Part shown: one piece after another, positions 44,944-61,063 of the stretch
How the letters are laid out: every line of letters starts with the position of its first letter
Numbering within the stretch: the first letter of the stretch is position 1
Notes under the pieces: generated by a model
What the model was told of the DNA's origin: nothing
Databases searched by the model: none
The model's input: only the letters and a program-made list of their open reading frames with translations
Source: Flavobacteriaceae bacterium PS02337
GTDB taxonomy: Bacteria > Bacteroidota > Bacteroidia > Flavobacteriales > Flavobacteriaceae
Assembly: GCA_029959285.1 (NCBI GenBank)
Contig: JASCOE010000007.1
Location: 186,001 to 250,000 of the forward strand
Reading direction: 5' to 3'
DNA length: 64,000 bases
Translations under genes and position numbers: made by a program

Positions 44944-44954
44944 AAGGCAAAGGA

Positions 44955-45260
44955 TTAAAGGAAGAATGAACGCAGGATGGTAGCTGCTACGATTAAGAAG
45001 ATACATGCTCCGAACCACGAAGCTGCCGTTTTACTCGTGTCGGGATCACCACTGCTGAATTTGTTATACACCTTAACTCCTCCGATGAGTCCTACGACGG
45101 CACCGATGGCGTAAATAAGCTGGGTTGCGGGATCGAAATAGGAAGTTACCATTTGGGTAGCCTCGTTGATACCTGCCGAACCATTTCCCTGTGCGAATAC
45201 GCCAATTGCTGACAGCATAGCCACGGCCGTCAGCAAAACTTTTTTTCTTTGTTTTTCCAT
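44955..45260 (-). CDS. traE: Conjugal transfer protein TraE (DUF4134)
   Basis: 101-residue TraE (VirB2-like pilin candidate, DUF4134): signal-like N-terminus (ending VFAQG), then two membrane helices with GSAGINEATQMVTSYFDP between them and SAASWFGACIF-type C-terminal helix (DTSKTAASWFGACIF). First gene of the traE-traQ block; preceded by a long leader that is duplicated upstream of the neighbouring cargo gene. Confidence 0.92.
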   Translation of the reverse strand: MEKQRKKVLLTAVAMLSAIGVFAQGNGSAGINEATQMVTSYFDPATQLIYAIGAVVGLIGGVKVYNKFSSGDPDTSKTAASWFGACIFLIVAATILRSFFL

Positions 45261-45261
45261 A

Positions 45262-45440
45262 ATTAAAACACATTAATTTGTTACAGTTTGCCCACACCTT
45301 GCGGGCTTTCGGAACAAAGGTGTTTCGGAAATCAAAGCACTCTAACAAACTGGCTGTCAAAGGCATTATTTGGCTGTCATTGGCGTTACAGTGTGTGTTA
45401 TGTAATAAAAAAACGCCAAACTTTTACGGTTTGACGTTGT
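45262..45440 (-). repeat. traE leader, copy A of a 180-bp duplication
   Basis: Leader before traE, about 180 bases, homologous over its length to 46297-46476. On the minus strand it carries two TGACAGCCA boxes exactly 20 bases apart (45379-45371 and 45359-45351) and, at its distal end, a hairpin AACGCCAAAC/GGTTTGACGTT (about 45412-45437). Likely holds the traE promoter and regulator sites. Confidence 0.75.
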
Positions 45441-45458
45441 CATGTATCATTAATTAGT

Positions 45459-46295
45459 TTACATTTTTCTCCCTCTTTTTTTTAGAGTTTTGTCGGTTTC
45501 AGGAATTTGTTTTTTTGATTGTAAAGTGTCCGGCTTTAATCGTTTTATATTTTCCTTGATGGTTTCGTCTATTCCTGTCTTCTGCCAAGGGATTAACTTT
45601 GCCTCGAAATGCAGTTTCAAACCTATTTCCTTTAAGTTTTGGGTTTCATTAAATCCGTGGTATCTGTTCCAGCCAATGGGATCTAATATCTGTTGATGTG
45701 GAAATTGTACAGCTATAAGATCTTTTGGATATTCCGTAATCTTATCATAATCCAGTTCCTGAAATTGATGTGTTTTTGGATTGTATGGAATTATATAACT
45801 GTGTTCTTCTTCATTGAAATAATGGTCGATATCAGAAAAACAAATACCCAGAGTGGTAAAATCATCTTTTGGCCTCAGCAGGTCTATCCGAGCATCGGCA
45901 AAAAAAGTATGTCCTGCAATATCTAACGTCGGAAGATTTCCCAGACGGATACGTTTATGCAATGCATCCTGATCAACCATTAAATCAAAATCATCCTTTC
46001 CGGAAACATCTGCAACATTATATTTTAATGCCATGCCCTCCGGGTCAAGTTTGACCAGGTCAGGAATTTTTACCGTTATTTTTTCATTACTGGAGAACAA
46101 ATGCGGAATATTTTTTTCACTCAAACCATATTGAAAAGTATAGCCGTCTCCAACATCCCGCATATCAAAGATTGAGATAGTATTTTTGGAGTTTAACTTT
46201 TCCCGGAGTTCTAATTTGTTTACATCGATAAGAAACTCTGTTCCCTCAATGTTAATTGTTGGTAATTCTCTTTTGTAGTCAGGTTCTTTCATCAT
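45459..46295 (-). CDS. Conserved ICE hypothetical protein
   Basis: 278-residue soluble protein of no recognised function; similar proteins are common on Bacteroidetes ICEs by impression of composition. It appears to contain two related halves, each pairing an ELPTINIEGTEFLIDVNKLE-like motif (residues about 10-30) with a second LPTLDIAGHTFFADARIDL (about 120-140). The C-terminus is Lys/Arg-rich. It is bounded by two copies of the traE leader, indicating insertion by recombination between duplicated leaders. Confidence 0.65.
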   Translation of the reverse strand: MMKEPDYKRELPTINIEGTEFLIDVNKLELREKLNSKNTISIFDMRDVGDGYTFQYGLSEKNIPHLFSSNEKITVKIPDLVKLDPEGMALKYNVADVSGKDDFDLMVDQDALHKRIRLGNLPTLDIAGHTFFADARIDLLRPKDDFTTLGICFSDIDHYFNEEEHSYIIPYNPKTHQFQELDYDKITEYPKDLIAVQFPHQQILDPIGWNRYHGFNETQNLKEIGLKLHFEAKLIPWQKTGIDETIKENIKRLKPDTLQSKKQIPETDKTLKKRGRKM

Positions 46296-46296
46296 T

Positions 46297-46476
46297 AAAA
46301 CACTTTAATTTGTTATTGTACTCACTCTTTGTGGGCTTTGTCAACAAAGATGTTTCAGAAATTAAAGCACTCTAGTAAAGTGGCTGTCAAAGGAATTATT
46401 TGGCTGTTATTGGCTTTGCATGACTTTTGAAACATCAAAAAAGCCAAACTTTTTATGGTTTGGCGTATAATTTTTA
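46297..46476 (-). repeat. Leader copy B of the 180-bp duplication
   Basis: Leader before the 45459-46295 gene. Shares with copy A the TGGCTGTCAAAGG-N-ATTATTTGGCTGT core (boxes at 46382-46390 and 46402-46410, 20 bases apart) and the hairpin AAGCCAAAC/GTTTGGC (about 46442-46465), which may terminate the methyltransferase gene. Confidence 0.75.
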
Positions 46477-46501
46477 GTTGTACAAATAGGTGTTTTTAAA
46501 T

Positions 46502-48343
46502 TTACAATCGAATATTATAATAATCTTCTAAGAACGCATCGATTATATCCTGATTAGATTCATTAATTAAAAAATCAATATCATTATTAGTAAATTCAGG
46601 AATACCAAAATTCTTGATATATGTACCATTCAATGAATAATAATCTGATGAATATGGTTTACTTGTTGTTTTTATATAGTACCAAAACAAACGGGATTCC
46701 AAAATCTTCTTTACCAATAACATTTCCTCTTCTGAATGACCGACAATTGCCTGTCCATTGTAGAACAGCAAATCATCATCGTTGCTGATTAAATAACTTG
46801 GAATTCTGTCTGAAAATTTAGGAAAAAATAATTTATTAGCAACTTTTTCCAAAGACTGCGTTCTTCCGAAGGCAAACCATTTTTCATATTTTCCTTTCCC
46901 TTTATCTCTTTCGGATAAAATGGCTCTTTTCCTTTGTAGATATTCAAATGCCATAGGAAATTGGTTACTCAAAAACTCTTCATCAAGGGCTTTTGGTTTT
47001 ATGTCATCATTATATGGAAACAAGACCTTTTCTCTCACTGCATCAAAATCAATATTTCTACTCAATTTATTTGAGTTCAAAATATCTTTGCAAATTCCTT
47101 TCTCTATTGGGTAAAGATTCCCATTTTGCAAGTAAAAAAAATCTTCATCTTCTGCTACTGGCTTAAAAATATAAATGTCATTTTTTAATGTAGCAATGCC
47201 ATGTCGAGTTTTATATCTTTCCCCAAAAGGTCTACCTATAGCTTCTAGCCTGGATATAATTTCATTGTTATTTAAATTCCAACCCTTTTTTGCATCAAGA
47301 TTTTTGTAATTAATTCTACTATATTGATTTCTATTAGTTGGAAATTCTTTATCAGTAGATTTATAATATTCGATATAATTCTGTTCCACTTTTTCCAAGA
47401 AACAAATGCAGGTGTAAGTGCTTTTTGATTTAAAAATCTGAAGAGTTCCAAAGTCAACAATTCTTATTGTAGCTCTATTTTCTTCAAAATAACTCCTTAA
47501 AGCTCTTCCATTTAAACTTTTGAAAAAAGTATTCATTGTAATATAACCTAGAATACCATTTTCTGCAAGATTTTCATACCCAATTTGAAAAAAAGGAATA
47601 TACAAATCAGGATTACCCGATGTACTAACTGACCAATTCTTAATATTTTCTTTGGCTTCTACTTCTAGATTCCTTGCAGAAACATATGGTGGATTTCCTA
47701 CAATAATTTCAAAACCTTGGAAATTATCATAGATATTATTCCAATTAAATATTAAAGCATCACCTGTGTGGATATTAAAATGAAATTCTTCTACATCTTC
47801 ACCTTCTGACAGTGCCAATAAACTTAATAGTAGCTTACTTCTGTTAACAGAATATTCTTGAATATCTAATCCAAAAATTTGGTGTTGAAAAATATGTGAA
47901 TAGCTGCTGCCCGTTCTTCTTTTTAATTCTTTTGCGGCAGTATATAAAAAGCCTGAACAACCACATGCAATATCAGCGATCTTACAATGGTCTATTCTAT
48001 AATTTTCTTTTTGGAAAGCCTGAGCAACAATATATTCTCTAATTTCGGAAGGTGTATATATCGCACCATTAACAATTCTATCTGAGGGAGATATAACAAA
48101 TTCAAAAAGTTCAATCAGTTTTTCAATATTAAAGTTTTGAACGACGTTTTTTATAATGTCTATAAACTTTAATAAATTATCTCTTTTTTGTGATCTTCGC
48201 TTTGATATTGAATATTCTTTGAGGAGTTTGTTATTAATAAGATTCAGATTATTAATTTCAATAAAAGCAGACACAATAAGTTTGTCCACTTCTTTTGGAA
48301 GTGGTGAATAAAACTTTAAATATTGATGTATTTCTCTATTCAA
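46502..48343 (-). CDS. Eco57I/TaqI-like N6-adenine DNA methyltransferase
   Basis: 613-residue DNA methyltransferase. Helical N-terminus (1-105), SAM-binding motif I DIACGCSGFLY (near residue 125), catalytic motif IV NPPYVSARN (near residue 218), then a C-terminal TaqI-type target-recognition domain (FYLQNGNLYPIEKG near residue 400). No nuclease domain is visible, so it should protect host DNA or act as the modification half of a system. The start is a TTG that directly follows the HNH stop in the reconstructed operon; no alternative ATG lies nearby. Confidence 0.88.
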   Translation of the reverse strand: MNREIHQYLKFYSPLPKEVDKLIVSAFIEINNLNLINNKLLKEYSISKRRSQKRDNLLKFIDIIKNVVQNFNIEKLIELFEFVISPSDRIVNGAIYTPSEIREYIVAQAFQKENYRIDHCKIADIACGCSGFLYTAAKELKRRTGSSYSHIFQHQIFGLDIQEYSVNRSKLLLSLLALSEGEDVEEFHFNIHTGDALIFNWNNIYDNFQGFEIIVGNPPYVSARNLEVEAKENIKNWSVSTSGNPDLYIPFFQIGYENLAENGILGYITMNTFFKSLNGRALRSYFEENRATIRIVDFGTLQIFKSKSTYTCICFLEKVEQNYIEYYKSTDKEFPTNRNQYSRINYKNLDAKKGWNLNNNEIISRLEAIGRPFGERYKTRHGIATLKNDIYIFKPVAEDEDFFYLQNGNLYPIEKGICKDILNSNKLSRNIDFDAVREKVLFPYNDDIKPKALDEEFLSNQFPMAFEYLQRKRAILSERDKGKGKYEKWFAFGRTQSLEKVANKLFFPKFSDRIPSYLISNDDDLLFYNGQAIVGHSEEEMLLVKKILESRLFWYYIKTTSKPYSSDYYSLNGTYIKNFGIPEFTNNDIDFLINESNQDIIDAFLEDYYNIRL

Positions 48344-48399
48344 TTACTGTTCTGTTTTTAGATATTTTAAATCACTTGCGTCCTAAACGTTTAAAAAGT

Positions 48400-48459
48400 G
48401 GCGGTGTTTGGATATAGCAAAGTTGCTATATTTAAATTGCAAAATTATAACACACCGCC
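48400..48459 (+). promoter_or_regulatory. Structured leader of the transposase gene
   Basis: GGCGGTGT (48400-48407) pairs with ACACCGCC (48452-48459) and encloses ATATAGCAA-AG-TTGCTATAT (48412-48431). The structure ends one base before the start codon and may limit translation from readthrough transcripts. Confidence 0.6.
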
Positions 48460-49635
48460 ATGATAAATTTAAATGTTTTTAGTCAGATTTTATCTCTTAT
48501 CGACCGCGAATTATTCAAAGATTTGGTTTCAAAGCACAAAAGTGACAAACATCAGAAAGGGATCAACAGCTGGACGCATCTAGTCAGTATGCTTTTCTGT
48601 CATTTTTCCTCGGCAGATTCGGTTCGTGATATTAGTAACGGTCTACGCAGTACCACTGGTAATCTGAACCACTTAGGTGTAGTAAGAGCTCCAAGTAAGT
48701 CTAATATATCCTATATCAACACACACCGTACCCATGAACTTTTCAAAGATCTTTACTATTCTGTTTTGGATAGGCTTTGGCAAAAGGACACCCATTTTCG
48801 CAAAGATCTTGGTCAGCTAAAGCGTAAAGTATATCTGATGGATGCAAGCATCATCCCCTTATGTCTATCTGTATTTGACTGGGCAAAGTTTCGTAGCACC
48901 AAAGGTGCCGTAAAGCTGCACACTGTCTTGGATTATGATGGCTGCCTACCTGTTTTTATGCAGATTACCGATGGAAAAGTACATGAGAGCCAGCGAGCCG
49001 GTAGTTACAGTTTTTCCAAGGGAAGCGTGGTGGTAGTGGACCGTGGCTACGTGGATTACAGCTGGCTTGGGGATTTGGACAGCAGGGGGTGTTACTTCGT
49101 TACCAGGAGTAAAGTTAATATGAAGTACAAGGTTATCAAGTCCTATCAGAGTGAAGCACTCATGGAAAAGGGGATCCTTAAGGATGAGCTCATTGAGCTA
49201 TCCGGTGCTGCCTGCAATAAATACAACGGCAAGCCGCTACGCCTAGTCCACTTTTGGGACAGCACCACTGGCAATGAGTACCACTTTTTGACCAATAATA
49301 CGAAGTGGAAGGCTTCTTTGGTGGCAAACATCTATAAACAACGCTGGCATATCGAAGTCTTCTTCAAGCATCTAAAGCAGCGCTTAAAAGTATCGACATT
49401 CATAGGGACTTCTGAAAATGCAGTGATGATCCAGATCTGGACTTCACTCATTGGCATATTACTGTTAAAATACTTACAAAAAAAGGCCAAATATGACTGG
49501 AACCTGTCCAATCTGGTCGCATTCATCAGAATGAATATCTTCGTGAAAATAAACATCTGGCAATGGATAGATGATCCCTTTCTCAGGCCGCCTATAAAAG
49601 GAAAAAAGGGACAGCTAAAGATCTTCGCAGATTGA
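48460..49635 (+). CDS. IS4 family transposase
   Basis: 391-residue DDE transposase with an N-terminal DUF4372-type domain (SLIDRELFKDLVSKHKSDKH), first catalytic Asp in VYLMDASIIPLC, second Asp in SVVVVDRGYVDY, and the IS4 Y-x2-R-x3-E-x6-K motif YKQRWHIEVFFKHLK (near residue 293). Intact, so the element may still move. Confidence 0.93.
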   Translation: MINLNVFSQILSLIDRELFKDLVSKHKSDKHQKGINSWTHLVSMLFCHFSSADSVRDISNGLRSTTGNLNHLGVVRAPSKSNISYINTHRTHELFKDLYYSVLDRLWQKDTHFRKDLGQLKRKVYLMDASIIPLCLSVFDWAKFRSTKGAVKLHTVLDYDGCLPVFMQITDGKVHESQRAGSYSFSKGSVVVVDRGYVDYSWLGDLDSRGCYFVTRSKVNMKYKVIKSYQSEALMEKGILKDELIELSGAACNKYNGKPLRLVHFWDSTTGNEYHFLTNNTKWKASLVANIYKQRWHIEVFFKHLKQRLKVSTFIGTSENAVMIQIWTSLIGILLLKYLQKKAKYDWNLSNLVAFIRMNIFVKINIWQWIDDPFLRPPIKGKKGQLKIFAD

Positions 49636-49707
49636 AAAATAGGGGTCAATATCGAAATGATGAAAAAAGCTATGCTTGTACCACAGAAATCCAATCCTAA
49701 AATTTAT

Positions 49708-50268
49708 TTAGGACACATATGATTTTAAATATGTAATAAACTCTTCCGATAAATCACTGTTCAAAATTTTTAAATCATTTTTAATTTTTTCATTTTTAGG
49801 ATCATTAATTTGATCTCTAAGTTTAAGCATCTTTTCATACATTTCATCCAACTTCCATATTAAACTATACCTTCTCAAACCAAGTTGCAGTTTATTGAAC
49901 ATATAATTTGCTTCTTTTGATCCTGCCTTTGGAACTATTGAACCATCACTATCTCTCTCAAAATGATCATTAAAATCAACATCACAAGGGTCTATGTAAT
50001 CCCCCTCATCATTAGATTTTAAAATATTAACATAAGAACAACAATAAACTAAATTAGAATATTCTGTTTCAAGATTTGGATTTTTAGAAAATGGCTTAAA
50101 GTGATCTATATGAAAAGTATTTTTTCCGCCAAACCAAAAATCGGGACAATCTGTGTATCCACATCTGCAATTAAAATCTTTAGCTAAGTAAACCTTATAG
50201 CTTCTATAATTTTTATATGCTTTTGTGAATGTCCTTGCGGGGATTTGGTATCTGAAATTACTTGCCAT
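49708..50268 (-). CDS. HNH endonuclease, last codons altered by the IS
   Basis: 186-residue HNH-type nuclease. FHIDHFKPFSKNPNLETEYS (near residue 53) supplies the catalytic His pair, NLVYCCSYVN the Asn/Cys part, and FNCRCGYTDCPDFW further Cys ligands. Its final codons (after TYLK) come from the insertion sequence. Without the insertion the frame would end YLKTEQ then TAA, giving about 188 residues, so only six residues are lost and activity may remain. Its start overlaps the end of the receiver gene by 11 bases. Likely the effector of the defence operon. Confidence 0.85.
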   Translation of the reverse strand: MASNFRYQIPARTFTKAYKNYRSYKVYLAKDFNCRCGYTDCPDFWFGGKNTFHIDHFKPFSKNPNLETEYSNLVYCCSYVNILKSNDEGDYIDPCDVDFNDHFERDSDGSIVPKAGSKEANYMFNKLQLGLRRYSLIWKLDEMYEKMLKLRDQINDPKNEKIKNDLKILNSDLSEEFITYLKSYVS

Positions 50269-50929
50269 CGTTATCTAATTTTTTAAGTAATTCATCTACC
50301 TTGTTCAATATATTGTCAAGACGTTGTGTATTTGAAAACGTCTTAAATTCAGTTGGAACAGAATGACTCGCATCAATAGATTTTTCTAGAAAATCATCTA
50401 ATTCAATAATGCGATTTTCAATCTTATAATCAGCCTTACCACTCTTTCTAACCTCTAATAATTCTTGCAATTCCTTTTGAGCTTCGGTAATTCTGGATTG
50501 ATAATGCTCTATTTGTTTTATTAATCTATCAGTAAATTTCACTTTAGCTTTTGTATCCTCGATTTCAGTAGTCATTAAACTTTTGGTGTAAACCAAATTA
50601 ACATCCTCACTATCACTGACAGCATCTTGATCTTTAGCCGTTAAAACAAAACAAGGAAACTTGTGTCTAATTGCCAGAAATTCTTCTACTAATTCAACAC
50701 CATTATAGGGAACATTATATCCCAATGCTCCAATGTTCTCATTTAGTAAAAAATCACTGACTATCACATCTGGATTAGCTTTTAGTATTTTTTCAATCAT
50801 TTCTTCCATATCTCCCAATGGAAGTTGTGGAACCACCTCAAAAATATTATTGGTGTTTGTATCATCAATATAATTTTGGAAGTTTTCTATTTGTTCTTGA
50901 TCCTCATCAATATAAAGCAACTTGTACAT
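50258..50929 (-). CDS. Receiver-domain protein with coiled-coil tail
   Basis: 223-residue protein: response-regulator receiver domain (1-125) with acidic pair IDED (8-10), phosphoacceptor Asp59 in VIVSDFLL, Thr97 in CFVLTA and Lys116 in VYTKSL, all canonical; then a coiled coil (about 125-170) and a helical tail, with no DNA-binding domain. It is eight bases downstream of the ATPase gene and overlaps the HNH gene, so the phosphorylation output is likely by protein contact, perhaps with the nuclease or methyltransferase (inference). Confidence 0.85.
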   Translation of the reverse strand: MYKLLYIDEDQEQIENFQNYIDDTNTNNIFEVVPQLPLGDMEEMIEKILKANPDVIVSDFLLNENIGALGYNVPYNGVELVEEFLAIRHKFPCFVLTAKDQDAVSDSEDVNLVYTKSLMTTEIEDTKAKVKFTDRLIKQIEHYQSRITEAQKELQELLEVRKSGKADYKIENRIIELDDFLEKSIDASHSVPTEFKTFSNTQRLDNILNKVDELLKKLDNDGK

Positions 50930-50937
50930 AACTTTAT

Positions 50938-52890
50938 TTATTTTTTGTATTTAACAGGAAATGTAATCCTAAGTCCAAATCCAACTTCAGGATATAATAA
51001 CTGTACCTTTCCATCATTTTCATTTACTATTGATTTTATTAACCACATACCCAATCCTGTTCCTTCTTCTTCACCTGTATATTGATTCCTTCTCGTAGTA
51101 AACAATGGTTCAAAAATCTTTTCAGGTTCAGTAATGTCCTTTGAAAGTCCTGGTCCATTATCGTGATAATCTATAATTATCCCTTTGTTGTTTTGTGTGA
51201 TTTTAAGATTAATTTGTCTTGGTCTATTAACTTTTGAGATTATAAATGCATCAATAGTATTAACTAGTAAATTGTTAAAAATACTATCCAAATCAATTTC
51301 AAATATCCTCATATGGACATCTTCAACCTCTGATAAGTCATAGTTAATTCCTTTTTCATTTAATACAGTAAGCCAATCATTTTTATAATTTGTAAAATAT
51401 GACTTAAATGATAATTGTCTTCTAGTTCTTTTGTCTTTTCGAGTTGCTCCAAGAGAAAAATTTAGCCAATTTTGTATTTTGACATCCTGAACTTTTATGC
51501 GTTCAATAAGTTTAAATGGATTTTTCCTGTCTTCTATTTGATCATATTCATTTTCTTGGATTTTTGAAATTAAAAGGTTTTTTAAGCGATCAGTTCTAAC
51601 AGCTAACATATCATTTAGCTTACTTAAATCGTGACTAAATGAAGCTAAAACGATACCGCTACTAGCCAATGCCCTTAACATTTTCTGTTCTTCCTTTAAC
51701 TTTTCTATTTCTTCTTCTTTTCGATCTAATTCTCCTGCAAGAATTTCTTTTTCTTTCTCGGCTTCGGACTCTTTTGAGTTTTCGTTATCATCTTTAACCG
51801 CATTAGGGTTATTTGCTGAAGCTTCTTTCTTAGCTCTACTTTTTGCTAATATTTCATTTTTGAGTTTCTCTGCCTTTTCTCTATCTCTTTCTGGACCATA
51901 CTTGATGTCATCATAGTCAGCCATTTCTCGGGCAATGTATGATCTGTCTTTTTCAAATTCTGCAATTATTTGAGTAATAAGTAGAACAAATATTCTAAAT
52001 GTCTTATTTTCCTGTAAACCTTCACGACTTGACTTATCTTCGAAATCTACATTTGTTAATCTTGAAATATTAACCGCACCTGCGACATTATCAGGCTCTA
52101 CTTTGTACCCACCTTCCTTTTTAGCAACACTAGCAGGACTTTGAGCTTTTCTGCTACCTAATCCTAACCAATCAAATGCTACATTATTAACCTCCCCATA
52201 AGGTCTTACCCTAAAATTATCTCTTACCAGTTTAATCCCGCCAAATTTATTCAACCAATCTCTTCTATCATTAGACATAAAACTTTTATTAAAGAATTTT
52301 TTTGTGTCTAATGAATTTGACTGTCTTTTTAGAAAATAAAAGGAGAAGCTAAAAATCCCAATATTTTTGAAAGTATTATCCTCATCAATATCTTTGAAAC
52401 CTTTTAATAGTTCAGAAAAAGTACTGGTCTTTTCCCAATATCCCTTAACAAAATCATTTTTCTTGTAATTATCTTTTTGCATCCCTTCTCTTTCAAAGAA
52501 ATCACTAGGTATAAGCTCAATATCATACTCATTTCTATATATTTTTATTGTAACATTTTGATCATCATCAGCAGTAGCAACTAATTTGTAATCAAAATCA
52601 TCACAAACAGATCCTAATACTTCTCCATACTTATTAGTAAATAGCGAACTGAATAGAAAAATTTCGAATCCACCTGCTTCCTTCGGTGGTACTAAAACTT
52701 CTAAATCATTGAAAACTTGCTCAACAAAAAAATCTTCCCACTCATCCCTTAAATCAGTTATTTTTAAAATAGTACCAAATTTAAAATCCTTCTCAGATTC
52801 TATTTTTGTTAAATCTATCTGTGGTAATCTATTTAAAAGCTCATCTTTAATGGATTTAGAAGTTAACCCTGTTAATTTTGCTCCTACTTT
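50938..52890 (-). pseudogene. Dual-GHKL ATPase/histidine-kinase-like protein, C-terminal part
   Basis: Frame continuous from 52890 to the TAA at 50938 (650 residues), separated from its N-terminal part (58916-59686) by the nested element. It holds a middle domain, a long coiled coil (Lys/Glu-rich), an H-box-like FSHDLSKLN (near reconstructed residue 672) and a full histidine-kinase ATPase domain: N box IFNNLLVNTIDAF (near 791), G1 YHDNGPGLS (near 834), F box IFEPLFTT and G2 GTGLGMWLIK (near 864). The native gene would encode about 907 residues. An in-frame ATG at 52482 could still give a 514-residue product retaining the kinase-like half. Confidence 0.88.
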
Positions 52891-53173
52891 CTCCGCTGAT
52901 AAAAATCCTAAAAGGTATCAAAACCCCCGAAATCCTATGATTTTCGGGGGTTTTTGCTTTTGCTGACATACCAAATTATTCATAAAATCTTATCGCTAAA
53001 GGGACTAAATCGAGACCCTAGAAAAAATCAGAAATCTAGGGTCTCGCTAAATCTCTTTAACCCTTGTAAACATTGAGGTTAACGATGTGAAAAAGTAGCT
53101 CGTTCACTTATTAAACATCTTGTTTGGCTTGGGAATGGATTTTAATTTGAAGAATAATTAACCAGTCAGTAAA
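52891..53173. other. Left end of the nested element
   Basis: About 280 non-coding bases. Contains an intrinsic terminator-like hairpin AACCCCCGAAA...TTTCGGGGGTT (52921-52956) followed by T's, and a perfect 11-bp inverted repeat GAGACCCTAGA/TCTAGGGTCTC (53012-53022/53035-53045), a possible integrase arm-binding or attachment structure. Confidence 0.6.
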
Positions 53174-54418
53174 ATGAAAGCGAAAGTAAACCTGCATATC
53201 TATGCAAAATCCACCAAGGCGAATGCCAAAGGGCAATTTCCAATTTATGTTCGTCTAACCGTAGATGGAAACAGAACCGAATTCAGCACTAAAAAATTTA
53301 TTGAACCTTCCCGATGGTCGTCAGAAGCATCTAAGGTTAAAGGTACAACTGAAGAAGCCCGTTCAATAAATAGTTACCTTGATGTAATAAAATCTAAAGT
53401 ATTGGATATACAAATGGAGCTAATTCATAAAAATCAAAATCTAAGTATTGAGAATTTTAAAGAATTGCTTTTCGGCTCTGATGAAAAACAGCGAATGCTT
53501 GTACCCATCTTTCAAGATCACAATAACAAGATAAAGGAATTGGTCGGAAAAGAATATGCTCCCGGAACATTAGAACGTTACGCAACTTCTTTAAAGCATA
53601 CTATAGAGTTTTTAGAGTGGAAATACAATGTAACTGATATTGAGATTTCCAAAATAAACCACGCATTCATTACTGACTATGAATTTTATTTGAGAAGCGT
53701 TAGAAACTGTTCAAATAATACGGCAGTAAAGTATATTAAGAATTTTAGTAAGATTATCAAGATTTGTCTTGCTAATGATTGGTTGGAGAAAAACCCATTT
53801 GCAAATTATAAAGCAAAAGTGAAAGAAGTTGAACGTGTCTATTTAACCGAAGAAGAAATTCAAGAAATAATAAAAAAGGATTTAAAAAACGACAGGCTTT
53901 CACTTGTTCGGGATATTTTCCTTTTTAGCTGTTTTACAGGCTTGGCTTACATAGATGTGAAGAACTTGACCAAATCCCACATAAGTATTGGGATTGATGG
54001 GGAAAAATGGATTTTTACACATCGTCAGAAAACCGAGAGTGCTTCAAAAATTCCAATTTTGCCAGTTACTCAAATGGTAATTGACAAATATGAAAATCAT
54101 CCGCAATGTGTTGGGGAAGATAAATTGCTCCCTATCCTATCCAATCAAAAAATGAATGCCTACCTAAAAGAAATTGCAGGAGTTTGTGAGATAGAAAAAG
54201 AATTGACCTTTCACATTGCCCGACACACTTTCGCCACGACTGTAACGCTAACTAATGGAGTTCCGATAGAAAGCGTGAGTAAAATGTTAGGTCATAAAAA
54301 TCTAAGAACTACTCAACATTATGCAAAGGTTTTGGATAGAAAAGTGAGTGAGGATATGGAAGTTCTCAAAGAGAAATTTAAAATAAGTCCAAATTATATT
54401 GAAGCAGTTAATAGATAA
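53174..54418 (+). CDS. int: Tyrosine-type integrase of the nested element
   Basis: 414-residue Bacteroidetes-type tyrosine recombinase, a distant paralogue of the ICE integrase: arm-binding domain (about 5-90), core-binding domain (100-210), catalytic domain with HIARHTFATTV (His-x-x-Arg), GHKNLRTTQHYAKV (His and Tyr). As in the ICE integrase, the first Arg position reads FTGLAYIDVKNL. Presumably catalysed insertion of the 6-kb element into the ATPase gene. Confidence 0.93.
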   Translation: MKAKVNLHIYAKSTKANAKGQFPIYVRLTVDGNRTEFSTKKFIEPSRWSSEASKVKGTTEEARSINSYLDVIKSKVLDIQMELIHKNQNLSIENFKELLFGSDEKQRMLVPIFQDHNNKIKELVGKEYAPGTLERYATSLKHTIEFLEWKYNVTDIEISKINHAFITDYEFYLRSVRNCSNNTAVKYIKNFSKIIKICLANDWLEKNPFANYKAKVKEVERVYLTEEEIQEIIKKDLKNDRLSLVRDIFLFSCFTGLAYIDVKNLTKSHISIGIDGEKWIFTHRQKTESASKIPILPVTQMVIDKYENHPQCVGEDKLLPILSNQKMNAYLKEIAGVCEIEKELTFHIARHTFATTVTLTNGVPIESVSKMLGHKNLRTTQHYAKVLDRKVSEDMEVLKEKFKISPNYIEAVNR

Positions 54419-54576
54419 TTAAATATCTTTTAAAATGACCGTTGAATTAGATTGTCTTTGAATTTTTAAGATAAATCGCCTATATCCACAATTTCATATC
54501 CCTGCTGAAGTCAAGTCTTAAAGTCGTATTTTGATGTATGTTTTCATTTGCAGGGTGTTGTTCTAGAATTAAGCGG

Positions 54577-55590
54577 TTATTGTCGTTTAATCGCTTTTTT
54601 GCTCCCTAAAGTACGGAGGTATTCTAAAATCAAATGCACGCCCTCATCATGCGACATAGAAGTTCCTATCTTTGGCATGTGAAGTTCGCCTTTCGCTGTT
54701 ATTCTCATTGCTATTTTGCCTTGCTTTTGCCATATCCCCGTATTATTAAATGGTGTTTCAGCCCTCAAATCCATTTGAGCCATATAGGCAATTCCCTGTG
54801 GGTTATGGCAGTGTGCGCAGTTAATATTAAGATAAGCCCTTGCCTTTGCTTCAATTGTTGCAGATGGATCATTATAATCCGTCATAGACAATAGTTTTTC
54901 GTTAGGTAAAATCTGGAGTTTGTTATGTTGCTTTAAATATTCTAATTGGTTTACCAGTTCATGATTTCGATTTATATCCATATTCATATTTTTGATTTTT
55001 AGTCCAATGGGTAAGAGCTCATTATCCTGGCGATGACATACAATACAATCAGTTCTAGAGGGAATTACGTAGTTTGTTGCGCGTTTTTTACCATTTTTGT
55101 CGATAAACGTGATAGGTGTAGTTTTGCCGTTCTGTGATAAATATGCTTCATTTTGCAATTCGTTCCATATATAAACAGCGGCATTCCATTTAGCTTTATA
55201 TTTTATTAATACACGTGTTTCCAGCACAGATTTGATAATCTTATTGTTCTTTAGGCGACTGCCATAATAAAATGTTTTAGCAATAATGGTTCCGTCCGGA
55301 AATTGTGGCAGTCCGTTTGTCTTGGCTATCATTTTTTGTCCGTGAGGTAAAATAACGATTCTCTTTTTTTCAGCATAATCCGTAAATAATGTGGATGCTA
55401 TTTCTACTGTAATTGCTTCAGTATTGGGTTTCAAATTTAACATTGGACCCTCAAAAAAATGATATTCAGATAGCTTTTCCTTAAAAATGATATTATATTC
55501 AATTACCGAATTTGTCCGTCGGTTATTGAGCATTATTATCAAAAATGGAACTAATAGCATTATAAATACAACGATATAAGATTTTTTCAT
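54577..55590 (-). CDS. Diheme c-type cytochrome (SO2930-like)
   Basis: 337-residue exported protein with an N-terminal signal anchor (about 5-22) and two CxxCH heme sites, CIVCHRQDNELLP (near residue 187) and CAHCHNPQGIAYM (near residue 260), with YLNINCAHCHNPQG typical of SO2930-family diheme cytochromes. MPKIGTSMSHDEGVHLI near the end can supply a Met ligand. Periplasmic electron carrier. On the minus strand downstream of the DUF420 gene after a 394-base gap. Confidence 0.88.
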   Translation of the reverse strand: MKKSYIVVFIMLLVPFLIIMLNNRRTNSVIEYNIIFKEKLSEYHFFEGPMLNLKPNTEAITVEIASTLFTDYAEKKRIVILPHGQKMIAKTNGLPQFPDGTIIAKTFYYGSRLKNNKIIKSVLETRVLIKYKAKWNAAVYIWNELQNEAYLSQNGKTTPITFIDKNGKKRATNYVIPSRTDCIVCHRQDNELLPIGLKIKNMNMDINRNHELVNQLEYLKQHNKLQILPNEKLLSMTDYNDPSATIEAKARAYLNINCAHCHNPQGIAYMAQMDLRAETPFNNTGIWQKQGKIAMRITAKGELHMPKIGTSMSHDEGVHLILEYLRTLGSKKAIKRQ

Positions 55591-55984
55591 ACTTGTGAAA
55601 ATATTAGAATAATTTAATGATACTTGAAAGCCAAAGTTTCACAAAAAGGTATCGGTAATATCCCGTCATTTGTGCGAAACGCTTCGCCATGAAATAATCT
55701 CGTTAGGATGAAGAAAAAGTATGCTGGAATTTCAATATCATAGCTTTTCGTTCCGATAGAAAAATAACCTTCCCCTTAATCGATGAACAAGATTTTATAA
55801 AAGTCTCTCGTGTTGGGTTACATATAACTATCGCAGACTATTTCGTCACTATCTGCCACAAAAATGAAATAATCTCTGTTAACTGGAATATTGGATGGAA
55901 AGTCTTAAAGTTGTTGAATATCTGCCAATTGCTTTATATTATCTTAAAACAATGCTTCGGATAATTTGCTGCATTTTAATAGTT
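55591..55984. other. Intergenic gap in the nested element
   Basis: 394 bases between the cytochrome and DUF420 genes. No complete gene. The plus strand has a degenerate open stretch (near 55745-55900) with PLIDEQDFIKVSRVG that might be a remnant of a regulatory gene, but it lacks a start. Confidence 0.4.
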
Positions 55985-56524
55985 TTACTTATAGTAAGGT
56001 GAAATTAATAAATATACAATCACGCCAGTTAAGCTAACATAAAGCCAAATTGGCATTGACCAGCGGGTAATTTTTCTATGAAGTGCAACTTCCATATTTA
56101 AACCTCTGCCTATAGATATAAGTGCCAGAGGAACCACTATTATGGCAAGTATGACATGTGTAATTAATATTACGTAGTATGCATATTTTACAAAACCCAC
56201 ACCTCCAAATTTTGTTGATGGCGTAGTAAAATGATACAATAAGTATGATAACAAAAAGACTGATGTAGACAAAAATGCGGCAAAGATAAAATTACGATGC
56301 CTTATGATTTTCTTTTGCTTGATAGCATAGAGTGCAAGTAAAAGAAATAAAAAGGTTGCCCCATTCATTATAGCATTCAATAGTGGCAAAAATGAGAAGT
56401 CATATTCTTGAAGACTCTCTCTTTTGGGAAGAAAAAAGGATAATGTAATAAGCCCATTGATTCCCAAACCCAAAGCCCAAACCCATGGTTTGTAATTCCT
56501 GATAATTATTCTGTTGTATTCCAA
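55985..56524 (-). CDS. DUF420 family membrane protein
   Basis: 179-residue membrane protein with five to six helices, matching DUF420, whose members are associated with cytochrome oxidase assembly or copper/heme handling. LNAIMNGATFLFLLLALYAI and HRNFIFAAFLSTSVFL are family-type segments, with His residues at the membrane faces. 43 bases downstream of the next membrane-protein gene and probably co-transcribed with it. Confidence 0.8.
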   Translation of the reverse strand: MEYNRIIIRNYKPWVWALGLGINGLITLSFFLPKRESLQEYDFSFLPLLNAIMNGATFLFLLLALYAIKQKKIIRHRNFIFAAFLSTSVFLLSYLLYHFTTPSTKFGGVGFVKYAYYVILITHVILAIIVVPLALISIGRGLNMEVALHRKITRWSMPIWLYVSLTGVIVYLLISPYYK

Positions 56525-56567
56525 AATGAAGTTTTAAAAGTTATTAATTGTTTTTCTGTTAATTGAA

Positions 56568-57032
56568 TTAAAAAGGTCTAAAATTTGGTCTGCTCGCCAA
56601 TGGAGAGAATGACCAAGGGATTGATGTTAGTATGATTATAAGCCCAACTGTAAACCATAGAGCCTCAGTCTTAAATTTTTCGACATCCATTTCCTTTCGT
56701 TTTGCCTTAGCAGAACCAATAGAGATAACAATGATTGCTATAAACATCATAAAACTGTGTTCCATCCCAAAAAAGCGGATTTCCCTTTGATGAACAGCCT
56801 CGTTATAATTATGAATGAAAAAGTTAGTGATTGGACTTATAAAATAAAGCCATAAACCTAAAATAAGTTGTATATGAGATATTGTTGCTGTCCAATGCCG
56901 TAACAAATTATCAAATTTTGAAAAGTCACGTTTGAGAAACCAACCCCGATAAGCACAAAAAATTGACAGGAGCAGGCTTATAAGCACAAACCATCTATTT
57001 AGAGAATGTAATGCTAAAACGGTTGAATACAT
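56568..57032 (-). CDS. Cytochrome b-like small membrane protein
   Basis: 154-residue membrane protein from ATG 57032 (MYSTVLALHSLNRWFVL); the open frame to 57137 crosses the promoter and is rejected. About four helices with conserved His positions (LHSLNRW, HWTATISHIQL, EHSFMMF), a pattern of heme-ligating cytochrome b-like proteins. First gene of the minus-strand operon under a TetR-type operator. Confidence 0.72.
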   Translation of the reverse strand: MYSTVLALHSLNRWFVLISLLLSIFCAYRGWFLKRDFSKFDNLLRHWTATISHIQLILGLWLYFISPITNFFIHNYNEAVHQREIRFFGMEHSFMMFIAIIVISIGSAKAKRKEMDVEKFKTEALWFTVGLIIILTSIPWSFSPLASRPNFRPF

Positions 57033-57053
57033 AATAAACTGTAATTTGTGTGA

Positions 57054-57085
57054 CAAAAATACATAAAAAACATACCAATCGGTAT
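57054..57085 (-). promoter_or_regulatory. TetR-type operator and promoter of the cytochrome operon
   Basis: Dyad ATACC-AATC-GGTAT (57072-57085) followed, on the minus strand, by T-rich sequence and the -7 element TATTTTTG (57061-57054). The dyad covers the -33 position, as expected for repression by the adjacent divergent TetR protein. Confidence 0.65.
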
Positions 57086-57217
57086 CTTTACAATAATTTT
57101 CTAAAAACTCAATTAATAAGCTTAACATTACCCACAACCATAGAATTTTTATAACCTACATAGAGCTTGTATGAGCGGGTTCAATTTTGTTCCTTTGCAA
57201 ACTAAATATTGATCTAA

Positions 57218-57808
57218 ATGAAAAAAGCAGCGGCTACACGCTTAACTATTCTACAAAAAGCATTTGATTTAATTTATGCTAGAGGATATCAAACTACAAG
57301 TATCGATGATATCATAGCCACAACACAAGTAACAAAAGGAGCATTTTATTACCATTTTAAAAATAAAGATGAAATGGGAATTGCCATAATTAACGAAATC
57401 GTAAAACCGATACTTACGAATAGCTTAATCATACCTCTGCAAAATGAAAAAGATCCATTAAATGGTATTTATGCTTTAATAAATAATCTTTTATTAGATA
57501 ATGATTTGCTAAAGGTAGAATATGGATGTCCTATTTCAAATTTTACACAAGAAATGAGTCCTTGGAATTCAGAGTTCAATAATGTATTAAGTAAATTGTC
57601 ACAGGAATGGATAGAAAAAATGACCGCAACTATTGAAAATGGGAAAAACGAAGGATACATACGCAAAGAAGTAAATGCAAAACAAGTAACAATATTTATT
57701 ATTTCCGGCTATTGGGGAGTTAGGAATTTCGGTAAAATAGAAAATAGTAATAGAGTATATTTTCACTATTTAAGGGAACTCAAACACTATCTTGAATCAT
57801 TGAAATAA
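57218..57808 (+). CDS. TetR/AcrR family transcriptional regulator
   Basis: 196-residue TetR repressor: N-terminal helix-turn-helix RGYQTTSIDDIIATTQVTKG with AFYYHFKNKDEM (residues about 20-58), then a ligand-binding domain with two Cys (YGCPISNFT). Divergent from the membrane operon and upstream of the carbonic-anhydrase-like gene; matching dyads precede both. Confidence 0.9.
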   Translation: MKKAAATRLTILQKAFDLIYARGYQTTSIDDIIATTQVTKGAFYYHFKNKDEMGIAIINEIVKPILTNSLIIPLQNEKDPLNGIYALINNLLLDNDLLKVEYGCPISNFTQEMSPWNSEFNNVLSKLSQEWIEKMTATIENGKNEGYIRKEVNAKQVTIFIISGYWGVRNFGKIENSNRVYFHYLRELKHYLESLK

Positions 57809-57819
57809 TTTTTTTATTC

Positions 57820-57856
57820 AAAAACATACAATTTAGTATGTTTTTAAGTAACTTTG
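57820..57856 (+). promoter_or_regulatory. TetR-type operator and promoter of the carbonic-anhydrase-like gene
   Basis: AAAAACATAC-AATTTA-GTATGTTTTT (57820-57845) is a perfect 10-bp dyad, followed by the -7 element TAACTTTG (57849-57856). The half-site GTATGTTTTT and its distance to the -7 element match the operator at 57072-57085. It could also serve as terminator of the TetR gene. Confidence 0.65.
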
Positions 57857-57881
57857 TCAATTAATTTTAAAAAATTTAAAA

Positions 57882-58460
57882 ATGACAAAATTTAGCGAAT
57901 TCGAATTCAGAAATATTCCTGGATTTGACCAAAACAATTTTCAAGGATTAGACCAAGCAATTCCAATGAAAACAATTGTTATCTATTGTTTCGATCCCCG
58001 AGCTTCGGAAATTCCGATGGCTGTAGCCAACTATTTAGGCGATGAAGTTTACCCCGGAGAAAATATTGTTGATGAAAACGGTGTTCGAATGGGTCACACC
58101 CGAACACTATTTACTATGTCAAATGGAGGCGGTCGTGCACTTCAGTCGCTTCAAACAATAGCAACAATGGATTATCTATTCAATTATAAGAATATTGTTA
58201 TAGTACATCATTCATTTTGTGGTATGACTTCTTATACTCCTGAATTACTTATTGAAAAATTTCACGATCGTCATCATGTTGATATTTCAGGCATGTGGTC
58301 TCATGAAGATATGGCAATAGTTGATTACGAAAAGACCATTAAACATGATGTCGAACTACTTCGCAACAGTCCTATCGTACCAAAACATCTTAATCTCTAT
58401 GGGTTTTTCTACGAAATAAATTCAGGTCAATTGACTGAAGTCGTTCGTGATATTGCTTAA
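57882..58460 (+). CDS. Beta-carbonic-anhydrase-like protein
   Basis: 192-residue protein with the zinc-site motifs of beta-carbonic anhydrases: IYCFDPRASEIP (Cys and the Asp-Arg dyad) near residue 32 and IVIVHHSFCGM (His and Cys) near residue 108. Expected to hydrate CO2, or to act on a related small molecule such as COS or CS2, which use the same fold. Under a TetR-type operator. Confidence 0.85.
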   Translation: MTKFSEFEFRNIPGFDQNNFQGLDQAIPMKTIVIYCFDPRASEIPMAVANYLGDEVYPGENIVDENGVRMGHTRTLFTMSNGGGRALQSLQTIATMDYLFNYKNIVIVHHSFCGMTSYTPELLIEKFHDRHHVDISGMWSHEDMAIVDYEKTIKHDVELLRNSPIVPKHLNLYGFFYEINSGQLTEVVRDIA

Positions 58461-58481
58461 GAGGAAAACGTATAATATTTT

Positions 58482-58520
58482 TATGGAGCGATCTTGGAAA
58501 TATTGGTCGCTCCATTTGTA
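58482..58520 (+). terminator. Intrinsic terminator after the carbonic-anhydrase-like gene
   Basis: TGGAGCGATC pairs with GTCGCTCCA across a 13-base loop, followed by a T-rich stretch. Confidence 0.7.
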
Positions 58521-58576
58521 TTAATTATGGATTTGTCTCAATCACCATTTTGAACAATCCAAAAAATAATTCAAAT

Positions 58577-58915
58577 ATGATTTTAGATATAAAAGTGCCT
58601 GATAGCAGTATTGCGCTTCAGGCTGAGGAGTTTGCCCGCTCTGTATCCGATGATATGTTATTTAATCATGTCATGAGATGTTATTATTTTGGGGAACTAC
58701 TTGCAAAGCAAGCGAACATAAAGGTTGATAGAGAATTGATGTTTGTATCATCAGTTCTACATGATCTTGGTTTTACTGAAGCTGGGAAAGGAACAAATCG
58801 TTTTGAAATAGAGGGTGCTAATGCAGCCCGAAAATTTCTTTTGGAACGAGGTGTAGAAGAAAATCGGACATGGAAAGTATGGCATAATATTGCACTTCAT
58901 GTGGGAGACCTCTTT
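58577..58915 (+). pseudogene. HD-domain hydrolase, truncated by the element end
   Basis: About 113 codons of an HD-domain phosphohydrolase-like protein from ATG 58577: metal-binding VLHDLGFTEAGKG (near residue 63) and WKVWHNIALH. After LH the sequence meets the element boundary at 58915 and continues by chance in host sequence to 58987. The second half, including the last Asp ligand, is missing, and joining the element's ends in a circle also gives a stop soon after. Non-functional. Confidence 0.75.
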
Positions 58916-59686
58916 ATCTATAGTTTTAAAATCACCTTCGAAGTCCTCCCAATTAACTACCCAATTGTATCCTGTGAAATTTGTTAATTTACCCTCTATA
59001 TCTGTGTCAGGTTTGTGAATTTCAGGATCAGGATTGAAAATTGTGGTCATTTCACATTTACTCCCTAATTTATCTAATGCAAACCTACCGATGCCTTTAG
59101 CTCCTGATTTTACTCTTCCTTGTCTAGTGAAAATGTTATTTGCTTTATTATCAGTACCTATAGTCATCCAGTGATCCCTAATAATATTCTGAGTCATACC
59201 TTCTCCAAAATCAATAACATAGAGAGCTGCAAATTTTGATATCAGATTTTTAAATAGCTGTATTTTTTTTTCTTCAATTTCAATTTTTAAAGAATTTTGA
59301 TCTTCATCACTTTCACACTTTGTCGAAAGAGTTTCTTTTGATATACCCAGTTCTATAAGACCTGTAAAATTAGTTATATCAATTTCTTGGTTTAGAGTAT
59401 AGTAACCTTCATCGCTATTAAAAATATAAATTGCTTCAAGAATTTCTTTAGAGACACCAAAGTTCATTAATCCCTGAAAGTGTTCTTCCTCTATTTCATT
59501 CAAAAAGGTAGAATACTTGTTATCAAAATAGACAATACAAACTTTACTATCTGCATCATAACTATTTTTGACAAGTTCAATAATCGCTCCTTTTGAACTC
59601 GCAACATTTTCACGTCCAATTAGCCTTGCAGTTCTAGCTGAAACTTTAAATGGAATTATATCAGTATTGTTGTCTTCCATTCTCAA
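58916..59686 (-). pseudogene. Dual-GHKL ATPase/histidine-kinase-like protein, N-terminal part
   Basis: The first 257 residues of the ATPase gene. An Hsp90/MutL/MORC-type GHKL ATPase: N box IIELVKNSYDAD (residues about 35-46), G1 VIDFGEGMT (near 157) and G2 GAKGIGRFALDKLGSK (near 192). It ends in FEGDFKTIDK at the nested element's boundary. The start ATG overlaps the stop of the upstream XRE gene. If expressed, it would produce a chimera ending in element-encoded residues (to 58757). Confidence 0.88.
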
Positions 59687-59883
59687 TCATTAAAAAGGTT
59701 AGTAAGCTTAACATCTAACAATTCAGCAACTTTTACAAAGGTTTTAATAGGAGGTTGGACCTCATTTGTACACCATCTTGATATAGTGGCTTCATTTTTA
59801 CCTAACTGTTCAGCTAGCCACTTGCTACTCATATTCTTCTCTGCCAATACTACCTTAAGTCTATTAATTGCCTTTTTACTCAT
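59683..59883 (-). CDS. XRE-family regulator, controller-like
   Basis: 66-residue helix-turn-helix protein: KVVLAEKNMSSKWLAEQLGK then NEATISRWCTNEVQPPIKTF, the XRE fold used by restriction-modification controller proteins. It overlaps the ATPase start by four bases (ATGA), so it heads the putative defence operon and probably controls its own promoter. Upstream gap of 92 bases to the tra gene at 59976. Confidence 0.85.
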   Translation of the reverse strand: MSKKAINRLKVVLAEKNMSSKWLAEQLGKNEATISRWCTNEVQPPIKTFVKVAELLDVKLTNLFND

Positions 59884-59975
59884 AAAAATTGCATATGGTG
59901 TAAAGATATTGATTTTTTTAATTACAATTGAAAAGGTTCAAAATATGTTTTTATATCACAAAAAAGGAGCTTGCT

Positions 59976-60611
59976 TCACACAAACTCCCCAATATCAAAA
60001 TCATTCAAATCACTTTTCCGCAAAGTGGAAGAGCTGGTTTCCGTTTCAGATGAAAGAGTACTGTCCAAAAGCTCGGCAATTCTTCGGGAAGCACCCTCCA
60101 TTGAACTTTCCAACAAGCTGAATAATTCGGTTCCCTGTAATCTTTGAACTATGTCTACCGCTGTTTCCTTTTGGGCTGGTTCCAAATTCTCTTTTTGCAG
60201 CAACACCCCCACGGAGCTTAGTTCTTCAAAGGTAACCCCTTGGGCATAACCGTTATCACTGCTGGATATTCCGTACCTATTCCATTCTTCTTCCTCTTCC
60301 TCCAAATCAGGCATATTACTGAAAACATCGTCCAGCTCTTCCTGCGGAATTTGAATATTGACTTCTTCGTTCTCGTCGTATTCAATGTCTAAATTATCAG
60401 GATTTATCTCAGCGTCCTGTATTTGGCTTTCATTGGCGGTGTTTGACTGCGAAAGGCTTTTTACAGGCTTTGGTTTACCCATGATTTCGGGCAAATCGGG
60501 TGCAGAAGAGACTTTATCTTCTTTTTTATAGCTAATCTTATTAATGACGACTTTCTCACTCACTAAAAGAATGATGACTATAAAGAGGCATATAACTATT
60601 ACAATTTCCAT
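59976..60611 (-). CDS. traD: Conjugal transfer protein TraD-like
   Basis: 211-residue protein with one N-terminal membrane anchor (about 2-17) and an acidic helical body (EEEEEEWNRYG), followed by a domain with FEELSSVGVLLQKENLEPAQ and a C-terminal FDIGEF. In CTnDOT-like operons such a protein lies between traB/C and traE. It follows the DUF3408 gene by 11 bases. The downstream traE now lies about 14.7 kb away because of cargo insertion. Confidence 0.72.
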   Translation of the reverse strand: MEIVIVICLFIVIILLVSEKVVINKISYKKEDKVSSAPDLPEIMGKPKPVKSLSQSNTANESQIQDAEINPDNLDIEYDENEEVNIQIPQEELDDVFSNMPDLEEEEEEWNRYGISSSDNGYAQGVTFEELSSVGVLLQKENLEPAQKETAVDIVQRLQGTELFSLLESSMEGASRRIAELLDSTLSSETETSSSTLRKSDLNDFDIGEFV

Positions 60612-60622
60612 AATTATTATGA

Positions 60623-61060
60623 TTAAATGGGTTTATATTTATCGTTATAGCTTTTGGTAATCTGCTCAGCAAATTCCTGAAAATGGTAATCCAGCAGATT
60701 GTCTAGATAGGCGTAGATACTGATTTTGTCTTCACCGATTACTTGTATAATACGTGTCAGCTTTTCGTGAAACTCCGGTCGGATATAAACCGTTTTTCCG
60801 TCACGGGCATTCGTTTCCGACTTTTTGAAAAATGTGTATTCATAATCAGTTTCATTAGTCCGTTTAGTTTTGCTCTTCTCCCTAACTACAGGCTTCTCCT
60901 TTGTCGGTTCTTCAATTTTATCCTCTTCTTTTTCGACTGCTTTGGCAGGCGGTTCGGGCGGAAGCTTCAGGCCCTCTTTTTTTACGCCATCAACCATTAG
61001 GTTCATCATCAATTCCTCATCGATGTCGGGTGTCGCTTTTCTTTTATTATCTTTTTCCAT
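60623..61060 (-). CDS. traB: DUF3408 protein (TraB/TraC-like)
   Basis: 145-residue DUF3408 protein: a low-complexity Pro/Glu/Lys N-terminal half and a C-terminal ribbon-helix-helix-like domain with GKTVYIRPEFHEKLTRIIQV and SIYAYLDNLLDYHFQEF. It probably acts with the ParA-like TraA. Three bases after the traA stop. Confidence 0.82.
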   Translation of the reverse strand: MEKDNKRKATPDIDEELMMNLMVDGVKKEGLKLPPEPPAKAVEKEEDKIEEPTKEKPVVREKSKTKRTNETDYEYTFFKKSETNARDGKTVYIRPEFHEKLTRIIQVIGEDKISIYAYLDNLLDYHFQEFAEQITKSYNDKYKPI

Positions 61061-61063
61061 AGG

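Follow-up and report, generated by a model that had tools for sequence, protein, structure and literature searches.

A candidate mobile restriction-type operon of dual-GHKL kinase, receiver, HNH nuclease and N6 methyltransferase, disrupted by two insertions in Flavobacteriaceae bacterium PS02337

The DNA considered here, referred to as the window, is a stretch of 64,000 nucleotides from Flavobacteriaceae bacterium PS02337 (contig JASCOE010000007.1, positions 186,001 to 250,000). An earlier note made from the letters alone had described five minus-strand genes at 46502-59883 as an undescribed defence operon interrupted by two insertions, and all five genes were found at these coordinates. From the first gene of the operon to the last, the features are as follows:

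59683..59883, minus strand: XRE/Cro-type regulator of 66 amino acids, first gene of the operon (Pfam HTH_26/HTH_3; same ORF present in the intact operon L086)
about 58909..59686, minus strand: N-terminal part of the dual-GHKL kinase, with the MORC-type GHKL domain (HATPase_c_3; alignment to intact relatives; boundary via L086)
52891..58908, unstranded: tyrosine-integrase element of about 6 kb within the kinase gene (Pfam Phage_integrase and Arm-DNA-bind_5; site empty in L086)
53174-54418, plus strand: integrase of the 6 kb element, with several cargo ORFs alongside
50938..about 52890, minus strand: C-terminal part of the kinase, with the remaining MORC-like module, a coiled coil, the DHp helix bearing the phospho-acceptor His, and the CA domain (HATPase_c, E 8e-13; fold of the intact homologue)
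50258..50929, minus strand: receiver protein of 223 amino acids, a REC fold followed by three C-terminal helices (Response_reg, E 2.7e-4, under the Pfam cut-off)
49708..50268, minus strand: PtuB-like HNH endonuclease, its final codons changed by IS4 (PADLOC PtuB models)
48373..49721, unstranded: IS4-family insertion sequence (NCBIfam transpos_IS4_1, E 3e-74; 9-bp duplication)
48460-49635, plus strand: IS4 transposase
46502..48343, minus strand: Eco57I-like N6-adenine methyltransferase (MTase) of 613 amino acids, long class (Pfam Eco57I, E 3e-29; PADLOC MTase_II across nearly the full length)

An intact operon, L086, is found in Flavobacteriaceae bacterium PS02338. It is near-identical to the window copy and lies on the same conjugative element, which aligns in three pieces at 99.4-100% DNA identity and lacks both insertions, confirming that these were inserted. 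All five genes of L086 are intact, the kinase has 907 amino acids, and the spacings are -4 nt (XRE/kinase), +8 nt (kinase/receiver), -11 nt (receiver/HNH) and 0 nt (HNH/MTase), the same values that had been obtained by removing the insertions from the window on paper. The alignment breaks at window positions 48372/49722 with a 9-nt overlap, which is the 9-bp target duplication of IS4, and at 52890/58909 with an 8-nt overlap in the BLAST pieces, where the flanks share a shorter core only. IS4 is indeed an insertion, but it lies inside the last codons of the HNH gene and not, as had been proposed, between the HNH and MTase genes; the window HNH therefore ends in altered residues and has 186 instead of 188 amino acids. 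There is one copy of IS4 in the genome of the window, and one full-length copy of the integrase element together with six further short, weaker matches. With its kinase gene split and its HNH end altered, the window copy of the operon is very likely dead, and it should not signal because the kinase gene is split. The XRE gene was rightly placed in the operon of the window and of L086, but it is not a constant member: with a profile built up from the XRE of the window, which may miss other small regulators, an XRE-like ORF was detected next to the kinase in 19/80 related loci. It is an optional, non-core part of the gene set.

The kinases of this type have both HATPase domains, HATPase_c_3 and HATPase_c (9/9), and in the predicted model a MORC-like half is followed by a histidine kinase. 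The N-terminal GHKL domain is followed by an S5-like domain, a feature of MORC and paraMORC proteins, while the best reach of this half in sequence comparison was endoplasmin (E about 0.001). When the whole kinase was searched with Foldseek, the first 50 matches listed were all kinases or kinase complexes, and the MORC match came from a second look. PADLOC gave two REase_II models (23/51 and 14/51 members) and weak others for the kinase, which is probably soluble. The H-box His is present in all 80 complete relatives. On the side of the receiver, D59 and K116 are kept in 81/81 members, T97 in 79/81 (Ser in two) and the acidic pair in 80/81 with one gap. The phosphorelay residues thus appear complete and nearly invariant, in keeping with the two-component logic proposed in the earlier note, and this proposed signalling logic is well supported by the anatomy. 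The receiver model has a pLDDT of 89.4 and its fold search returned mostly receiver proteins (best E 6.4e-5), with no identification for the helical tail. DNA-binding domains gave no significant match in the receiver, its PADLOC labels were weak (at most 8/50 members), and no ORF matched both the receiver and the HNH profiles.

The HNH protein is a predicted nuclease that presumably is active, with H56, N72, N81 and K84 kept in 81/81 members. The PADLOC PtuB models matched 36/36 members, 30 of which also matched one model labelled PtuA1, and PtuB-like HNH proteins bear Septu and retron labels in the scans. The MTases keep the NPPY motif and match type II models of PADLOC over nearly their full length; those of two plasmid loci (L032 and L033) are annotated as 'N-6 DNA methylase'.

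Scanning 84,980 species genomes with a pattern-based method gave 216 kinase relatives, of which the best 80 were analysed. The receiver lies directly downstream in 80/80 of these loci, the HNH gene is present in 78 (the contigs of the other two end), and an adjacent MTase was found in 75, downstream in 72 and upstream in three, giving the order kinase-receiver-HNH-MTase in 72/80. The possibility set out beforehand, that homologues of the ATPase and receiver are never found beside HNH and MTase genes, is clearly contradicted by the 75 loci with an adjacent MTase. Three of the five loci lacking one end at or near a contig edge (2, 2 and 143 nt remaining); in the other two, L094 and L107, the first three genes are present and a search for the MTase detected none. 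The 80 loci are partly non-independent, being in some cases near-copies or from genomes whose loci had already been found (e.g., L040/L041, L095/L096, and L046 and L025), and split genes occur among them (HNH in L074, MTase in L079). Considering all 110 kinase loci, the gene junctions overlap or measure at most 15 nt in 102/104, 101/102 and 84/88 cases. The gene order recurs far beyond chance, the operon is a real unit of wide distribution, and the recurrence of the set across related loci bears out the proposal of one functional operon. Bacteroidota is the label of 63 of the 80 genome loci, and the others come from six further named bacterial phyla, an archaeon and a few genomes without placement, although many loci are metagenome bins, so that single cases may be misplaced.

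Searches with the receiver and the HNH led to the same gene set. Within the window's own family, the receiver matched eight of 299 genomes, that of the window among them, and the other seven all have kinase, receiver, HNH and methyltransferase in that order. At the level of the phylum, 245/395 genomes exceeded the formal threshold, with five strong ones (E 2e-51 or better; the next after the gap at 7e-9) and the others weak and mostly partial among the matches listed. The five are the window's own genome, G157 and three more, and these three all have complete operons (3/3), one of them (G322) being probably the same genome as that of L063. The HNH search of the 299 family genomes matched 13 at E 1e-10, ten strongly (E 3e-27 or better) and three weakly (E about 1e-11); eight of the strong ones were already known, and the two new ones (G276 and G045) have complete kinase-receiver-HNH-MTase operons. 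At least 10 of the 299 family genomes, the window's included, therefore carry the gene set.

The MTases of the 80 systems fall into two groups of 43 and 37 members that BLAST does not link to each other at E 1e-20 and 70% coverage. Sequence comparison presents them as diverged classes rather than proven unrelated ones, because they share a common N6-methylase domain and 17-19% identity in closest-kinase pairs. The window MTase had no phmmer match at E 1e-3 among the MTases of the short class in the seven family loci, which were recognised by a mixed profile that includes the window MTase. On a FastTree kinase tree, at least seven class changes are forced by starred branches, and there are eight changes in all versus 26.7 with shuffled labels; the MTase class thus appears clustered on the kinase tree but repeatedly exchanged. 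In close pairs of MTases, no sharp hotspot corresponding to a hypervariable target-recognition region was found (window identities 35-83%).

Co-variation was assessed by identity correlations over 3160 pairs from the 80 systems, which are not phylogenetically independent and carry no p-value. The correlation is 0.67 for kinase and receiver, 0.64 for kinase and HNH, and 0.67 for receiver and HNH, while it is 0.09 for HNH and MTase and a weak 0.19 for kinase and MTase. These values bear on an explanation that we regard as unlikely, namely an ordinary type II restriction-modification (R-M) system in which a sequence-specific HNH is paired with the MTase, and the kinase and receiver are merely regulatory accessories. 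Like such systems, our operon combines a methyltransferase with an endonuclease (the nuclease family by homology), the two being adjacent in the 72 ordered loci; the nearly full-length type II matches of the MTases and the kinase-MTase correlation inside the short class (0.56, versus 0.19 in the long class) fit as well. However, the HNH tracks the kinase and receiver and not the MTase, even inside the MTase classes (0.14 and 0.27), and related HNHs are paired with widely diverged MTases, as in one pair with 66% identity in the kinase, 62% in the HNH and 19% in the MTase. Moreover, the 10 strong HNH matches in the family sample, where kinase-free pairs were sought via the HNH, all sit in kinase-receiver operons (10/10). 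The methylation-sensitive nuclease suggested in the earlier note is weakened by the same independence of HNH evolution from the MTase. Since the MTase classes have been swapped repeatedly and the kinase, receiver and HNH kept together, a signal-gated nuclease is favoured over an ordinary matched restriction pair; in our reading of these sequences, the three proteins would form the working core, with the MTase as an exchangeable specificity part.

Similar kinase and receiver loci beside R-M genes were predicted in 2021, in the one close description that the literature searches gave, which qualifies the claim of an undescribed system. HEF_HK kinases and Response_reg_2 receivers were predicted there mainly beside C5 methylases, with Vsr and HNH_2 nucleases, and according to the accessible text, they share with our operon a kinase of HATPase_c_3, DHp-like region and HATPase_c, a separate adjoining receiver gene and nearby R-M genes, HNH nucleases included (Bellieny-Rabelo et al., 2021; PMC8011034). 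PF19191 (HEF_HK) was absent from nine kinases at E up to 10 and, at a limit of E 0.01, from the kinase fragments in the window; PF19192 (Response_reg_2) was absent from 11 receivers at E up to 10 and, at a limit of E 0.001, from the genome to which the window belongs. Seven PF19192 loci above the cut-off all have the order C5-type MTase, kinase, receiver (7/7), where the C5 label comes from the first residues of the proteins and the accessible text of PMC8011034 and not from a profile. Their kinases are distant homologues that match our kinase profile (E 1.5e-37 to 6.7e-47), and our receiver, HNH and MTase profiles matched nothing in these loci at E up to 10. Their receivers measure 525-575 amino acids versus about 205-236 in most of our loci, and the methylase neighbour is mainly of C5 type in the HEF_HK loci of the accessible text (PMC8011034) versus Eco57I/N6 type in our window. 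Membership in the HEF_HK/Response_reg_2 families was rejected, as PF19191 and PF19192 were unmatched and the methyltransferase and receiver types are different; we regard those loci and ours as sister types within a single larger kind of dual-GHKL kinase-receiver restriction locus. A metallo-beta-lactamase-fold variant in Hymenobacter (L035) and a C5-methylase locus with a 362-amino-acid receiver-like protein (L134) seem to be further types.

ParaMORCs have been placed in R-M operons, and in the text available, the MORC/paraMORC operons resemble ours in the N-terminal GHKL and S5-like half and in the methylases and nucleases around it (Iyer et al., 2008; PMC2292703). In our operon, by contrast, the MORC-like half and a histidine kinase form one protein and the receiver is separate; the word "receiver" is absent from the main text of that paper as available (PMC2292703). 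Septu and HNH-bearing retrons share the PtuB-like HNH nuclease, whose partner in our operon is the kinase-receiver pair and not a PtuA-type ATPase or reverse transcriptase: the gene upstream of the HNH is the receiver, within 15 nt in 101/102 loci where both were called, and none of the six PADLOC families listed for 51 kinases is PtuA. The GHKL type of Shedu, VcSduA, is a GHKL-nuclease protein that works as defence and likewise couples a GHKL ATPase to a nuclease, but it is a single protein with a DUF4263 nuclease domain and, in the accessible text, no described kinase-receiver pair or MTase (PMC12137116); the 22 Pfam families listed for nine kinases do not include DUF4263. No defence label in the scans covers the gene set as a whole, and the statement that no named system has it holds for PADLOC-DB 2023 and for the literature searched, whose reach stopped short of most subscription papers and preprints. 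The accessible text of PMC12839542 and PMC10952713 does not describe it either.

Detocs, which shares with our operon the two-component logic in defence, can act by abortive infection, and its best-described effector degrades ATP, according to the accessible text (PMC11249213). It differs in having three genes, and no Detocs label appeared among the PADLOC families listed (kinase, receiver and 25 of 88 for the HNH), in a version that may lack Detocs models. Detocs is not known to contain a methyltransferase or HNH. Its mode of action, together with the Septu and retron labels of PtuB-like HNHs, would suit an explanation that we hold to be improbable, in which the kinase senses phage interference (e.g., methylation loss or DNA damage), the HNH destroys host DNA or other nucleic acid, and the cell dies; such a suicide switch needs no dedicated, conserved methyltransferase.

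Besides the conjugative element, the operon is found on several kinds of mobile carriers. Among 18 viral-contig kinase matches, 14 have receiver and HNH and eight a detected MTase (six downstream, two upstream), and N6_Mtase is also matched by the gene that lies upstream of the kinase in L127 and, less strongly, in L124. In plasmids, 100 records match the C-terminal part of the kinase, 41 of the matches being from Campylobacter at about 25% identity among the matches listed; three of five loci examined are complete by profile, the exceptions being L035 with its variant set and L036 with a split kinase. Searches of phage records gave three and two records with weak protein matches, one of which spans most of the kinase at 25% identity. 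Eight mobility probes matched in only 17/80 genome loci within the DNA fetched around each, which speaks against the reading of mobile defence. A survey of neighbours (148 of 156 selected proteins, 48 loci) gave scattered integrases, TniQ and defence-like proteins and no recurring family, any one being matched by at most two members. The copies of L127 and of L110 (Enterobacter) had no DNA-level match in complete E. coli genomes. The carriage on a conjugative element, plasmids and viral contigs would also suit an addiction module of mobile elements, in which operon loss leaves the nuclease acting on unmethylated host DNA, but this is very unlikely, as disruption of the kinase is tolerated in the window copy and a nuclease gated by the relay would lose its activity along with the kinase.

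Taken together, we consider it somewhat probable that this is a mobile restriction-type defence operon in which a kinase relay gates the HNH and the MTase marks self, with the window holding an inactivated copy on a conjugative element. A role in defence is suggested because of the R-M content and the mobility, and we infer the anti-phage function from anatomy and company. In the proposed mechanism, the N-terminal half of the kinase would act as an ATP-driven clamp of the MORC/paraMORC type, probably loading onto DNA or onto a complex of protein and DNA. Foreign or unmodified DNA, the presumed trigger, would cause the C-terminal half, a complete histidine kinase, to autophosphorylate on the H-box His, from which the receiver would take over the phosphate on Asp59. 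Once phosphorylated, the receiver, which lacks a recognisable DNA-binding output domain, may then turn on the co-translated PtuB-like HNH by direct contact. The N6 methyltransferase would mark host DNA and, as an exchangeable part, is probably the source of sequence specificity; since it is swapped while the rest stays, where specificity lies is a directly testable question.

If this is right, phosphate signalling, which usually serves gene regulation, would decide when a restriction nuclease cuts, with a MORC-type clamp as the sensor. A more far-reaching version, which we put forward only tentatively, is a restriction system whose phosphorelay uncouples sequence recognition from cutting: the MORC-kinase would read the methylation or foreign state, the receiver would license a non-site-specific nuclease, and the swappable MTase would define self. 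Were this version true, MORC-type clamps would be true signalling sensors, and there would be an evolutionary root for the reading of epigenetic marks by MORC proteins.

The kinase gene of the operon is split by a 6 kb integrase element, of which the genome holds one full-length copy. Beside its integrase, the element encodes a protein with weak similarity to cytochromes and what may be a TetR-type regulator (a label read from the sequence); a further ORF, which weakly resembles the HD/cyanamide-hydratase family, crosses the right edge of the element into the kinase gene. Another broken copy is found on a Rhizobium phaseoli plasmid. These two features and the diverged or variant loci are as follows:

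Window 52891-58908, 6 kb element, tyrosine integrase with Arm-DNA-bind_5 and SAM_5
L036:4933-7560, R. phaseoli plasmid copy, kinase divided over two ORFs
L189:4601-10186 (genome G045), complete, more diverged operon, small regulator-like ORF in front
L035:3809-8940, Hymenobacter plasmid variant, in the order N6 methyltransferase, kinase, diverged receiver, metallo-beta-lactamase-fold protein
L134:6418-11167, viral contig, C5 methylase, dual-GHKL kinase, 362-aa receiver-like protein

The G045 operon was missed by the single-sequence receiver search and recovered by the HNH search; therefore, receiver-based operon counts are lower bounds.

In the Hymenobacter variant, the metallo-beta-lactamase-fold protein takes the position of the HNH, which suggests that effectors can be exchanged. 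L134 is a third arrangement of the same kinase–receiver theme, and L131 and L132 also have a receiver-like ORF of similar size downstream of the kinase. Viral contigs among L124–L129 have a gene of approximately 420–440 aa upstream of kinase–receiver–HNH, which is methyltransferase-like where tested (L124 and L127 by Pfam; L126 by profile). Integrase-like ORFs are present in some of these contigs, whose operons are perhaps prophage cargo.

The operon in the window is flanked by ParA-like and TraG-like genes (approximately 42113-61831; names read from sequence). Since L086, the intact near-identical operon of Flavobacteriaceae PS02338, and the related loci L070, L090, and L091 also match both flanking genes, a conjugative element may favour this interval as a place for its cargo.
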